64,000 nt of DNA, taken from Pseudanabaena sp. Chao 1811 (GTDB taxonomy: Bacteria > Cyanobacteriota > Cyanobacteriia > Pseudanabaenales > Pseudanabaenaceae). Of this stretch, positions 10,677-57,798 are shown piece by piece. A program made the translations under genes and the position numbers. Location of the stretch: assembly GCF_027942295.1 (NCBI RefSeq), contig NZ_CP101416.1, positions 4,450,501-4,514,500 on the forward strand, written 5' to 3'. Each line of letters begins with the position of its first letter. Position 1 is the first letter of the stretch. A model generated the notes under the pieces. It ran no database searches, was not told the DNA's origin, and was given only the letters and a program-made list of their open reading frames with translations.

Positions 10677-10761
10677 CGGAGAGAGAGGGATTCGAACCCT
10701 CGGTTGCTTTCACAACATTCGATTTCAAGTCGAACGCATTCGACCACTCTGCCATCTCTCC
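10677..10761 (-). tRNA. tRNA-Ser (anticodon UGA)
   Basis: Complete class II tRNA read on the minus strand. The 7-bp acceptor stem is GGAGAGA/TCTCTCC with discriminator G at 10677. The anticodon loop CTTGAAA gives anticodon TGA (serine). A long variable arm follows the anticodon stem, as expected for tRNA-Ser. The T-loop is GGTTCGAATCC. CCA is not encoded. Confidence 0.95.
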
Positions 10762-37525: not shown

Positions 37526-40147
37526 TTAAGAAACAGTGATTAGATCTCCAGAAAGTCGTCTGAAGGCAAGACGCTCATTTTCGATATCGACAAAAATTGT
37601 GTCGCCATCAGTATAGTCACCACGCAAGATTCCCTTCGCAATTTGAGTTTCTAGTTGACGCTGAATGATCCGTTTGAGTGGACGCGCACCGTATACAGGG
37701 TCATAGCCAACTTCCGCAATAAAGTCTAGGGCAGCATCGGCAAGTTTGAGGGTCATGCGGCGATCGCCTAAACGTTGTTCTAAACGCTTGACTTGCAGCT
37801 TAACGATACGGCGCAATTCGTCACGGCGGAGAGCATGGAAGATTACAATTTCATCAATACGGTTAAGGAATTCGGGACGGAAGCTAGAGCGCATCGACTC
37901 CATCACGCGATCACGCATTTCTTCATACTTAGAGTCATCCCCCGCAATATCGAGAATGAATTGCGAACCAACGTTGCTGGTCATGATGATAATCGAATTC
38001 TTAAAGTCAACGGTGCGACCTTGAGAATCAGTAACACGACCATCATCGAGGATTTGCAGCATGATGTTAAATACATCGGGGTGGGCTTTCTCAATTTCAT
38101 CAAAGAGAATTACGGCATAGGGACGACGACGCACGGCTTCAGTCAATTGTCCGCCTTCCTCGTAACCGACATATCCGGGAGGTGCGCCGACTAAACGGGA
38201 AACGCTGTGTTTCTCCATATATTCAGACATATCAATCCGCACCATCGAGTCTTCGGTATCGAAGAGATAGGCAGCAAGGGCTTTAGCAAGTTCAGTTTTA
38301 CCGACACCCGTGGGACCTAAAAAGATGAAGCTGGCGATCGGACGGTTCGGATCGGCGAGTCCTGCCCGCGATCGCTGAATGGCATCGGCGATCGCTGTTA
38401 CTGCTTCCTCTTGTCCAACGACGCGATCATGGAGAACATTTTCCAATTGCAAGAGTTTTTCTTTTTCCGATTCCACCAGCTTGCTAACGGGTATACCCGA
38501 CCATTTAGAAATGATTTCAGCAATGTCTTCTTCGGTGACTTCTTGGCGCAATAGCGATCGCCCTGACGTTTTGGCTTCTTCGAGATTGACCTCAGCAATT
38601 TCTAATTGACGTTGTAAATCGGTAAGCTTGCCATACTTGAGTTCGGCAGCTTTATTCAGATCATAGTCACGTTCCGATTGCTGAATTTCGACATTGACAT
38701 GCTCGATTGCTTCCTTCAGTTTGCGGATATTATCGATTACCTGTTTTTCAGCTTCCCACTGAGCCTTGAGGGTGGTTTGTTCTTCCTTTAAGTCGCCCAG
38801 TTCCTTGTTCAGTTTTTCGAGACGATCTAGGGACTCACGATCAGTTTCCTTTTTTAGAGAGAGGCACTCCATCTCTAGCTGAATCACCTTACGATTGATT
38901 TCATCAAGGGCTTCAGGTTGAGAGGTGATTTCCATTTTTAACTTCGCCGCAGCTTCATCGACGAGATCGATCGCCTTGTCTGGCAAAAAGCGATCGCTAA
39001 TATAGCGATTAGAAAGGGTTGCCGCCGCTACCAGCGCCGTATCCGAGATTTTTACGCCATGATGCAACTCGTAGCGATCGCGCAGACCACGCAGGATTGA
39101 GATTGTATCTTCAACATTTGGTTGATCGACATATACCTGTTGGAAGCGACGCTCAAGGGCAGCATCTTTCTCAATATATTTGCGATATTCATCGAGGGTA
39201 GTTGCACCAATACAACGCAACTCACCACGAGCTAGCATTGGCTTCAGCAAGTTACCTGCATCCATTGCACCCTGTGTTGCACCCGCACCGACTACGGTAT
39301 GGATTTCATCGATAAAGAGAATAAATTGTCCACTTGATTCAGTCACTTCCTTGAGGACAGCTTTTAGTCTTTCCTCAAATTCACCGCGATATTTTGCACC
39401 AGCAATTAGTCCACCCATATCGAGGGCAATCAACTTACGCCCCTGTAAAGATTCAGGAACATCACCACTGAGGATGCGTTGGGCTAAACCTTCAGCGATC
39501 GCTGTTTTACCCACACCCGGTTCACCAATTAGGACAGGATTGTTTTTGGTGCGGCGCGACAAAATTTGGATCGTGCGGCGAATTTCATCATCACGACCAA
39601 TTACGGGATCAAGCTTGCCCTCACGGGCTAATTCGGTGAGATCACGACCATATTTGGTTAATGCTTCGTATTTGTTCTCAGGATTTTGGTCTGTCACTTT
39701 TTGATTGCCTCGGACTTGCTGAATAATATTACGGAGCTTGGCTTCATCGAGTCCCATTTCTTGATATAGGGTTTTTCCGAAGCGATCATCTTTGCAATAG
39801 GGCAGCAAAATATGTTCGATGGAAATAAACTCATCGCCAAAACTTTTACGTTCCTTGTCGGCACGATCTAGTAATACATCTAAGTTTTTGCCTAGATAAA
39901 CTGCACTATTTGAGCTAGATACTTTAGGCTGACGATTAATAAACTCATCAGTGCGATCGCGTAAACGCTGAATATTGATCCCCGCTTTGCTAAAAATACT
40001 TGATGCTAGCCCTTCTTCCTCTAGCAAGGATTTTAGTAAATGCTCTGGCTCTATTTGTTGTTGTTGGGCTGCTTTCACCACGTCGGGTGTCCTTGCGATC
40101 GCCGCCCATGCTTTTTCGGTAAATTGATTTGGATTAGTTGGTTGCAT
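37526..40147 (-). CDS. clpB: ATP-dependent disaggregase ClpB
   Basis: Hexameric AAA+ chaperone that resolubilises protein aggregates with DnaK. 873 aa. Repeat Clp_N domain (about 1-145), first AAA+ domain with Walker [10 protein letters not shown] (about 205) and '[14 protein letters not shown]', a middle coiled-coil domain (about 410-530) that marks ClpB rather than ClpA/C, second AAA+ domain with GPTGVGKTE (about 605) and '[16 protein letters not shown]', and the C-terminal ClpB small domain. A GGAGGT-like ribosome site precedes ATG 40147. Cyanobacteria usually have two ClpBs; which one this is cannot be told here. Confidence 0.97.
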
Positions 40148-40536
40148 CGCGAGTTACCTCCTGTGGTGTTTAGACAAATTGAAAATTACAACTCAAGTAC
40201 GACTTGAATGATGATTTATCGGTTATTTGCTTATCTGGGAATATCTTAGAGTGTCTAGATTTTTAGCGGGATCGGTTCTACCTTGCTAAAGAGTGCGTGT
40301 TTCCGTACCTATGGGGCTTTTAAAAAACTTTGTTACGCAAATGATATGTATTGATATAAAAAGAGATAAATCTATATAAAAATCAATATTAAAGAATCAG
40401 TAAATTTAATAAACAAACCAGCAATAAATAAGTGTCCAAATTAATAAATATGTTAATTAATATCGCCCAAAACAAATTGAGAATCACTTAAAGACTAAGT
40501 ACAAATACTTAAGCTTTAAGTTTAGAGAATTAACTG

Positions 40537-40720
40537 TAAAGAAAATATTAAGTGATCCTGCAAGTGTCAAATTTTCGATCAAAATAGGATCATTCAAACG
40601 GAGCCAGCTTATATATAGGCTCTGAATTTAAATACAAACTTAATAAACTACTAACCAAATAAGTGGTTTCTCAGAGCAAATGGTTATTTATACCTAGCTT
40701 CAAGAAACCACTTATTTTTA
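40537..40720 (+). ncRNA. Candidate small RNA, copy 1 of a tandem pair
   Basis: No ORF. It shares with copy 2 a block beginning TAAAGAAAATATTAAG (40537-40558, 20 of 22 nt), then CATTCAAACGGA (40591-40602, 12 of 12 nt) exactly 54 nt from the first block's start in both copies. A hairpin with a perfect 15-bp stem (AAATAAGTGGTTTCT, 40657-40671; complement 40703-40717) and a T-rich tail follows 66 nt later. Transcription would be on the plus strand, away from clpB. The 5' end is unknown; the first block could be promoter rather than RNA. No known family recognised. Confidence 0.5.
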
Positions 40721-40883
40721 TGCAAATTCTTGATAATTTCATTTTAACTGGTATTAATTTTGTCAATTAGGGATAACCACACCAAAAATCCCAGTATTTT
40801 TACTCACTTATATGGGGATCTAGGGCTATCAAGATTTTGAATGTGGGTATTTAAACTTAGGTAAAATAGCTGGCTGGAATTAT

Positions 40884-41067
40884 AAAGAAAACATTAAGCG
40901 ATCCCAGTTTTTGATCAAGATCTTGCAGAATATAAACATTCAAACGGAATCGGCTAATTTAAAGATTCTGAACTTCAATACCAAATTTAAGAACAATTTA
41001 TAGAAATAAATGGTTCACTCTAGATAAGTAATTCTACTTAAATTGAGTGAGCCATTTATTTTTTTGA
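40884..41067 (+). ncRNA. Candidate small RNA, copy 2 of a tandem pair
   Basis: Same architecture as copy 1: block TAAAGAAAACATTAAG (40884-40905), CATTCAAACGGA (40938-40949), then a terminator-like hairpin. The stem is AAATAAATGGTTCACTC (41005-41021) pairing with 41046-41062 over 17 bp with one G-U pair, ended by seven T. The stem sequence differs from copy 1 yet pairing is kept, which suggests selection on the fold. It ends 186 nt before the aat start, so it could also be a leader element, but the T-run favours termination. Confidence 0.5.
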
Positions 41068-41252
41068 CCGTTTTCGCTTTGGTAAAAGTCTTATATTTTT
41101 TATGCGCTAATTGATGTAAATACTGAGTAGTTTTTCAGCTAATTGTCTGCTTTCGCAGATGAGGATTAGACAAAAAACTATGTTGATTTGTAAAGAGACT
41201 TTAAAATAGATTGCAATATTAAATTCTTTACTTGCGAGCTGGAAATCTATTT

Positions 41253-41834
41253 GTGGAAAGATTTGATATCCGCAGCGTTATTGACGGTTATAGCCAAGGC
41301 TACTTTTTGATGGCCGAAGGTGATGGGCAGCCGATTGAGTGGTATTACACGAATGAACGCACCTTGATCCCCCTTGACGATCGCTTTCGATATCCCAAAT
41401 CTTTGCAGCGGGCAATCAATCAAAATCGCTTTGAGGTCAAAATTGATAGTGCCTTTGAGCAGGTTGTAGAAGGCTGTGCTGATCGCGAAACGACATGGAT
41501 CTCCAACGAACTGCGATCGCTATATTTTAATTTGCACCAAGCAGGTTGGGCGCATAGTTTTGAGACATGGCAAGGAGACAAGTTAGCAGGCGGAATTCTG
41601 GGGATCGCCATTCGTGGCGTATTTATTGGTGAGTCGATGTTTTTTAAAATTCCTGAAGGCTCGAAGGTGGCAATGGTGAAGTTAGTAGAGCATTTGCGAT
41701 CGCGGGGTTATGGTTTATTTGATGCTCAGTTAATGAATCCGCATTTAGCAAGATTTGGAGCCTATGAAATTGACGATCAAAGTTATCAAAATCTATTACA
41801 AAAAGCATTAACTAAATCTTGTGTTTTTGTATGA
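41253..41834 (+). CDS. aat: Leucyl/phenylalanyl-tRNA-protein transferase
   Basis: Transfers Leu or Phe from charged tRNA to N-terminal Lys/Arg of proteins, feeding the N-degron pathway (ClpS/ClpAP or ClpC). About 193 aa from GTG 41253 ([13 protein letters not shown]), which matches the expected short cyanobacterial N-terminus; a TTG at 41232 gives 200 aa. Motifs: '[11 protein letters not shown]', '[17 protein letters not shown]', '[10 protein letters not shown]', '[17 protein letters not shown]', '[19 protein letters not shown]', '[15 protein letters not shown]'. Length is short compared with E. coli, as usual here. Confidence 0.93.
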
Positions 41835-57697: not shown

Positions 57698-57744
57698 GGG
57701 CGCTTAGCTCAGTTGGTAGAGCGTCTCGTTTACACCGAGAATGT
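57698..57744 (+). tRNA. Truncated tRNA-Val(UAC), 5' 47 nt only; island boundary
   Basis: Begins GGGCGCTTAGCTCAGTTGG and is a normal tRNA-Val through the acceptor 5' strand, D arm and the anticodon stem-loop TCTCG-TTTACAC-CGAGA (anticodon TAC). After the variable-loop ATGT the sequence departs from any tRNA: no T arm and no AGCGCCC acceptor strand follow. The break is where tyrosine integrases often recombine. A working tRNA is not possible from this copy. Confidence 0.85.
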
Positions 57745-57798
57745 GATTACTCTCTAGCCCTCTATTCATAAGGCTTTTACAAATTACAAATATTTTCT

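Follow-up and report, generated by a model that had tools for sequence, protein, structure and literature searches.

The tandem repeats between clpB and aat in this Pseudanabaena genome are best explained, with a probability that we put at roughly 70%, as an ancient pair of tandem paralogues belonging to a family of free-standing small RNAs (sRNAs), in which each copy would have its own promoter, give rise to an RNA of about 130 nt with an intrinsic terminator and act in trans via a 5′ hairpin. Comparison of related sequences establishes the copies themselves, their conservation, the covariation in their stems and the promoter-like pattern ahead of them. The window, that is, the whole stretch of 64,000 nucleotides that was analysed, covers positions 4450501-4514500 of the 4.73-Mb genome, and the original prediction, made from its letters, was of two paralogous terminated RNAs at this locus. 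Such RNAs fit the results, and the tandem pair is indeed present here, but the RNA is confined neither to the locus nor to the genus. What the window contains is a tandem duplication within a family that is widespread in the class.

Few trans-encoded sRNAs have been described as conserved across cyanobacteria, and those that have been studied steer photosynthesis, iron or nitrogen; the table of a 2018 review contains four trans-encoded cyanobacterial sRNAs (PMC6202907). A further family of such breadth, with a covarying hairpin and a promoter-like region, would provide a concrete locus for tests in model strains, and the tandem pair would offer a naturally occurring example of one regulatory RNA in two diverged, paralogous forms.

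Organization of the locus

The two units share one plan, as had been claimed from the sequence. Both aligned segments of the repeat, 40532-40558 against 40878-40904 (85% identity) and 40580-40648 against 40926-40994 (72%), recur at the same spacing of 346 nt, and the match of copy 2 to copy 1 has E 5.4e-6 when the entire 4.7-Mb genome is searched; the two-copy repeat is beyond chance. On its plus strand the window contains the 12-nt block CATTCAAACGGA at two places only, 40591 and 40937, in each unit exactly 54 nt past a 22-nt block, and the strong hairpins begin 66 and 67 nt further on, at 40657 and 41004, all in agreement with the original prediction. The 22-nt block itself has the predicted 20 of 22 matches and begins at 40537 in the first unit, but its second occurrence starts at 40883 and not, as given before, at 40884, where only 9/22 letters agree. 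Absent from the earlier description was a smaller hairpin immediately after CATTCAAA in both copies, which turned out to be the most widely conserved structure of the family. The coordinates are collected in Table 1.

Table 1. Features of the two units and their surroundings (window positions unless stated otherwise)
Feature	Position	Strand	Evidence and remarks
clpB	37526..40147	-	Pfam ClpB_D2-small, AAA_2, Clp_N; divergent neighbour, outside the predicted RNA genes
Palindromic box AAGTACAAATACTTA (AGTA-N4-TACT), possible operator	40497..40511	.	38-41 nt upstream of box 1 in 24/44 copies
Copy 1 box 1 (TGTAAAGAAAATATTAAG), 11-bp direct repeat TWANGAAA	40535..40552	+	About -57 to -40; overlaps the 22-nt block; conservation across the 71-copy alignment
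Copy 1 predicted -10 hexamer CAAAAT	40580..40585	+	A and T of NANNNT in 71/71 aligned copies; putative
Copy 1 predicted small RNA, ~129 nt	40592..40720	+	Predicted start A 40592, +/- a few nt; strong conservation resumes there
Copy 1 5′ hairpin CGGAGCC-AGCTTATATATA-GGCTCTG, G-U wobble at pair 2	40599..40624	+	Covariation
Copy 1 A/U-rich linker	40625..40656	+	First ~23 nt nearly invariant in 22 copy-1 sequences
Copy 1 terminator hairpin and T-run	40657..40720	+	Covarying stem; arms 40657-40671 / 40703-40717
Copy 2 box 1 (TATAAAGAAAACATTAAG)	40881..40898	+	Alignment of 71 copies
Copy 2 predicted -10 hexamer CAGAAT	40926..40931	+	Alignment of 71 copies; putative
Copy 2 predicted small RNA, ~128 nt	40938..41065	+	Predicted start A 40938, +/- a few nt
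Copy 2 5′ hairpin CGGAATC-GGCTAATTTAAA-GATTCTG	40945..40970	+	Covariation
Copy 2 terminator hairpin and T-run	41004..41065	+	Covarying stem; arms 41004-41030 / 41035-41061
aat, leucyl/phenylalanyl-tRNA-protein transferase	41232..41834	+	PF03588, 209.3 bits; neighbour; start codon uncertain
6S RNA (RF00013) of the genome	836177-836364 (genome)		62.9 bits; away from the RNA pair

Distribution and copy number

A blastn search with the region matched 31/58 genomes, the query genome included; of the 25 genomes that share its genus, 23 were matched. In one of the 31 (G043) the match is limited to the terminator region. The covariance model search that had been proposed as a check was run with two models, R1, built from 42 copies, and R2, built from 71 diverse copies. 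R1 found relatives in 35/38 genomes of the order and 109/291 genomes of the class, and R2 in 115/386 genomes of a sample of the phylum (best E 1.2e-13), with every one of the R2 matches coming from the query genome, the same genus or the same class. The units are thus conserved in related genomes, far beyond the genus. Nostoc, Fischerella, Microcystis, Geminocystis, Chamaesiphon and Microcoleus are among the matches listed in a pattern scan, and R2 had no match in family f2, from which twelve genomes (1.6-3.0 Mb; presumed picocyanobacteria) were listed, 251 further genomes without a match lying outside the listing. In one 2.8-Mb genome (G045), the RNA lies directly 3′ of a yqeG-like gene.

Within the genus (26 genomes, including the query), R1 detected two copies in 17 genomes, one in 7 and none in 2, the latter being drafts of 460 and 750 contigs; in all 17 two-copy genomes the copies are in tandem. 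R2 had two matches in 30/115 genomes, and three of these second matches are the second hairpin of one RNA. The copies form two groups, with 85% identity within groups and 72% between them, and 71% between both copies of one genome (16 loci). By this pattern, the duplication predates the divergence of the species in which both copies are present. The relatives that were fetched for closer comparison are a chosen selection of the matches.

Structure and covariation

When compared with dinucleotide shuffles, the folding of copy 1 (40592-40722) and of copy 2 has z-scores of -6.9 and -6.3, respectively, with 0/200 shuffles reaching these levels in either case. The predicted RNA consists of a short 5′ tail, a 7-bp hairpin, an A/U-rich linker and a terminator. 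A simple terminator scan, which takes loops of 3-8 nt only, reported none here, where the stems are long and interrupted. The claim that the stems of the strong hairpins had changed in sequence and kept their pairing is borne out by covariation in both terminators, with double changes at 10/21 pairs of the whole structure for copy 1 (22 sequences) and at 12/29 pairs for copy 2 (17 sequences); L033, L034 and L038 were omitted from the full-length set.

In the 5′ hairpin, 98.1% of the cells are paired among 46 distinct copies, which were gathered by blastn or the covariance model and not by pattern, R1 itself knowing the pairs, and 50 cells are changed on both sides, compared with 14.3 in shuffles (0/500 as high) and with at most 7 in slid controls. 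The 42 copies gathered by blastn alone yield 40 double-changed cells vs 11.4 in shuffles (0/500). Not all measures of covariation exceed the shuffles: two of five do not in the 46-copy set (pairs with a double change, 5 vs 4.5; further pair types, 12 vs 12.5), and one of five does not in the 42-copy set (pair types, 8 vs 7.3). The window copies themselves differ by compensatory changes (GGAGCC/GGCUCU vs GGAAUC/GAUUCU). Lengthening the hairpin by 3 bp (GUU with AAC/AAU) was considered and dropped, as the pair counts are without clear covariation.

The second pair of this hairpin is a G-U wobble in 44/46 of the copies not taken by pattern and in 137/139 segments overall, the latter count including segments retrieved with a pattern in which the U side was preset and made after omission of L076, L086 and L098, in which the script found no stem. 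The loop positions are near-invariant in the 71-copy alignment, with the conserved loop CAGC..AUAUAAAG. Furthermore, a second hairpin whose loop ends in the same manner is present in 34/139 copies, compared with 1/1390 letter-shuffled tails; by eye, about 30 of the 34 are of the same kind and four are terminator-like, and a Lyngbya copy carries two hairpin modules. The fixed wobble, like the doubling of the module, suggests that the hairpin is recognised as a unit. The RNA would contact its target, of which none was found, through the conserved loop or through the flanking single strand, and pairing with an mRNA, for which the odds fall just short of even, appears a little likelier than binding of a protein, which we regard as doubtful.

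Several of these features would also be expected of a protein-binding sponge, in which an RNA-binding protein recognises the 5′ hairpin with its fixed G-U and loop, and the RNA titrates or scaffolds that protein. The retention of G-U at pair 2, although G-C would be stronger, the near-invariant loop positions and the second hairpin of some relatives all favor such a function, but each window RNA has one hairpin module only and the sponge has no known partner, so that we consider this interpretation somewhat unlikely. An analogy is with CsrB-type RNAs, which titrate or scaffold CsrA; like the present family, these sponge RNAs have a hairpin with a fixed loop, which here is repeated in some relatives, but they differ in that this family has one or two modules only.

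Comparison with known RNAs

The proposed check against Rfam was carried out with Rfam 15 and returned no family match at the RNA, either in the window or in 20 fetched relatives. At gathering score, the only matches in the window are two tRNAs elsewhere, at 10677-10761 (minus strand) and 57698-57763 (plus strand; weak, 34.5 bits), and those at the 20 distant loci are tRNAs only. Below threshold there are chance-like matches only, the best of them, to a plant microRNA model, scoring 25.3 where 54 bits are required.

Among individual RNAs, 6S RNA is likewise conserved, structured and of similar size, but RF00013 is absent at the RNA locus and present elsewhere in the genome (Table 1). PsrR1 (SyR1) resembles the window RNA as a free-standing sRNA of ~130 nt that is conserved in cyanobacteria, and it has been tied to the OmpR-type regulator RpaB (PMC13421787); it differs in that no mRNA partner is known for the Pseudanabaena RNA. 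The SyR1 primers, which are primer-length pieces from Synechocystis, match the window at best in 12/22 and 14/24 letters, within the range of shuffles, and match 129 regions at best in 15/22 and 16/24, the shuffled maxima being 15 and 15. In Synechocystis, SyR1 is located in the fabF-hoxH spacer (PMC2662882); a fabF-type active-site motif, V[DE]TAC[SA]S[SA], was found in 0/127 fetched stretches around relatives in what was a motif test and not a profile search. Yfr1 and Yfr2 are, like the window RNA, cyanobacteria-wide and short, with a fixed motif. The single-stranded Yfr1 motif CACUCCUCACACC reaches 8/13 in the window, as in shuffles, and 11/13 in one copy among the relatives, where shuffles reach 10; six primers for Yfr2a-c do not exceed the shuffled maxima in the window and do so by at most one letter in the 129 regions. 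PsrR1/SyR1, SyR2, Yfr1 and Yfr2 were accordingly rejected on printed primer-length sequences, one-letter excesses being taken as noise. IsaR1, which is induced by iron starvation, has a length of 68 nt, compared with the ~130 nt predicted here.

A literature search, with start-site tables in supplements and most subscription papers outside its scope, found no description of the RNA. Because there is no Rfam match, no clear match to an sRNA primer and no description in the literature covered, we propose that this is a new RNA family of a known kind. There is about one chance in four that it is already listed, that is, that it corresponds to a described cyanobacterial sRNA outside Rfam, such as IsaR1 or an unnamed entry of a dRNA-seq table. 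In support of this alternative, IsaR1 is called conserved in cyanobacteria in PMC6202907, and 229 intergenic starts are given for one Synechococcus strain alone in PMC6091082. Against it, the Synechocystis primers for SyR1/PsrR1, SyR2 and Yfr2 are not clearly beyond shuffles in the window and 127 regions of relatives, the 6S RNA of the genome lies elsewhere, and IsaR1 is about half as long as the predicted RNA.

Promoter-like region and predicted start

In the alignment of 71 copies (A7), from which 16 loci were omitted by hand together with copies more than 78% alike, conservation is concentrated in islands, namely the box (columns 2-26), a hexamer and, further on, the hairpin; the stretch that separates box and hexamer is variable in sequence and nearly constant in length, an arrangement typical of a promoter. 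The -10-like hexamer NANNNT, which in the window is 21 nt past the end of the 22-nt block, has its A and T in 71/71 copies, an invariance that is not that of the whole family because of the 16 loci omitted by hand; by eye, about 9 of these (e.g., L114, L126, L162, L175 and L117) keep the hairpin and have another upstream region. One base ahead of the hexamer there is a TG (T in 54/71, G in 63/71), which both window copies lack at that place. From the invariant hexamer and the preceding TG, we infer a start just before UUCAAAC and an RNA of ~130 nt, which is the low end of the 130-180 nt originally predicted. The hexamer and the first base of the stem are separated by 13-15 nt in 63/71 copies. 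The eighth letter after the hexamer varies (G 34, T 19, A 17 of 71), and hence the exact start letter is uncertain; in the window, the predicted start is placed at position 40592 in copy 1 and 40938 in copy 2, in each case an A that follows the hexamer by six nt. The mapped start of SyR2 in Synechocystis also has a hexamer CAAAAT six nt upstream (PMC2662882).

Each copy would thus have a promoter of its own, with the box about 50 nt upstream, a -10 element and no clear -35 element, and many relatives have a -10 that belongs to the extended TGN class. Contrary to its inclusion in the unit at first, the 22-nt block probably lies outside the RNA and most likely serves as a promoter box, formed by an 11-bp direct repeat that precedes the start by ~50 nt. 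That the whole unit from 40537 is transcribed and the block is an RNA element appears improbable: conservation of the block within the genus is high, and its AAGYGATCC looks, by eye, similar to an arm of certain copy-1 terminators, but the variable sequence of near-constant length up to the hairpin and the invariant A and T of the -10 argue against this, as does a consensus fold without any pairing that involves the block.

Box 1 has the spacing of sites of OmpR/PhoB-type regulators, an 11-bp direct repeat of TWANGAAA, and an OmpR-type response regulator might read it; an UP element is an alternative. Across the 71 copies, the paired positions of the half-sites have T in 68 and 71, A in 71 and 70, and G in 52 and 59. 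With at most one mismatch, the box pattern has 109 matches in the genome, compared with 223 for the reversed control, so that the box is not enriched as a site common to many genes in this genome. Exact matches number three, two of them the window copies and the third at G000:C1:3010206-3010221. A Pho box bound by SphR was rejected as well. SphR sites consist of 8-bp repeats with a 3-bp linker (PMC1906773), and the spacing of box 1 is PhoB-like, yet its half-sites are only vaguely similar to those of SphR and point in the opposite direction. In the genome's own PstS-like promoter, by eye, CTTAACCT repeats are oriented towards the gene, and box 1 has no such repeats.

Of the AGTA-N3..5-TACT palindromes, found in 24/44 copies, 22 belong to copy 1, one to copy 2 and one to a single copy of another genus. 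The palindrome keeps a fixed distance from copy 1 and is a possible operator, and its presence in 22 copy-1 sequences vs one copy-2 sequence suggests separate control of the paralogues. At copy 2 of the window, AGTA-N4-TACT has decayed (40845-40859).

The HLR1 site of RpaB is KTTACAWW-N2-KTTACAWW, with activation from about -66 to -45 and repression from -38 to +23 (PMC13421787). Both window copies have 4 mismatches to it at best. Upstream of relatives, HLR1-like sites with at most 2 mismatches are found in 23/89 cases vs 0.9 in shuffles, with 1/89 on the minus strand, and in thinned copies in 14/55 vs 0.85 shuffled, but 4 in the reversed control; they are mostly outside the RpaB positions given in PMC13421787. 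Control by RpaB via HLR1 is therefore offered as a lead only. These (G/T)TTACA-N4-(G/T)TTACA sites are enriched on the plus strand, ~80-160 nt before the predicted start (e.g., in L100, L129, L137 and L078).

Taken together, these patterns invite a broader and more speculative proposal, which we hold to be rather unlikely as a whole: an undescribed RNA of many cyanobacterial lineages, seemingly not including picocyanobacteria, might use one or two hairpin units to capture a common partner, either a protein or a core mRNA, and might be driven by an OmpR-type regulator, with an HLR1-like light/redox site in many relatives and with the Pseudanabaena duplicates under separate control.

In several Fischerella/Calothrix-type copies (L114, L126, L162, L175, L117 and L191), the hairpin is combined with a different upstream region. 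Some of them bear TTAAGAAAATATTAAA repeats in tandem, a stretch resembling GATGRGARTCTAAATA is shared, and these copies perhaps represent another subfamily.

Gene context

Neighboring genes were surveyed in the 110 loci for which both flanks were available, after removal of 14 whose flanks were short, by a script that took ORFs of at least 80 aa and labelled them by short motifs, with single examples checked by Pfam. The upstream ORF is co-oriented in 92/110 loci and is DUF3493-like in 35 and YqeG-like in 31. Downstream, the ORF is proB in 21/110 loci and otherwise varied, and in 53/110 it is on the opposite strand; thus, there is no fixed co-oriented downstream gene of the kind that a cis-acting riboswitch or leader would have. 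The varied neighbors and the frequent opposite orientation favor a trans-acting RNA over a riboswitch, and a role in cis is unlikely. In particular, the two units are very unlikely to be tandem cis-acting leaders (riboswitches or attenuators) of aat, notwithstanding the terminator after each unit and the co-oriented aat that follows both in the window and at five further family loci (L033, L066, L068, L069 and L072), given that proB or other genes follow elsewhere, often in opposite orientation, and that both units have a promoter pattern of their own. Opposite orientation of the downstream gene is frequent at L079 and similar Nostocales loci, the gene at L079 encoding a beta-helix DUF1565 protein with S-layer domains.
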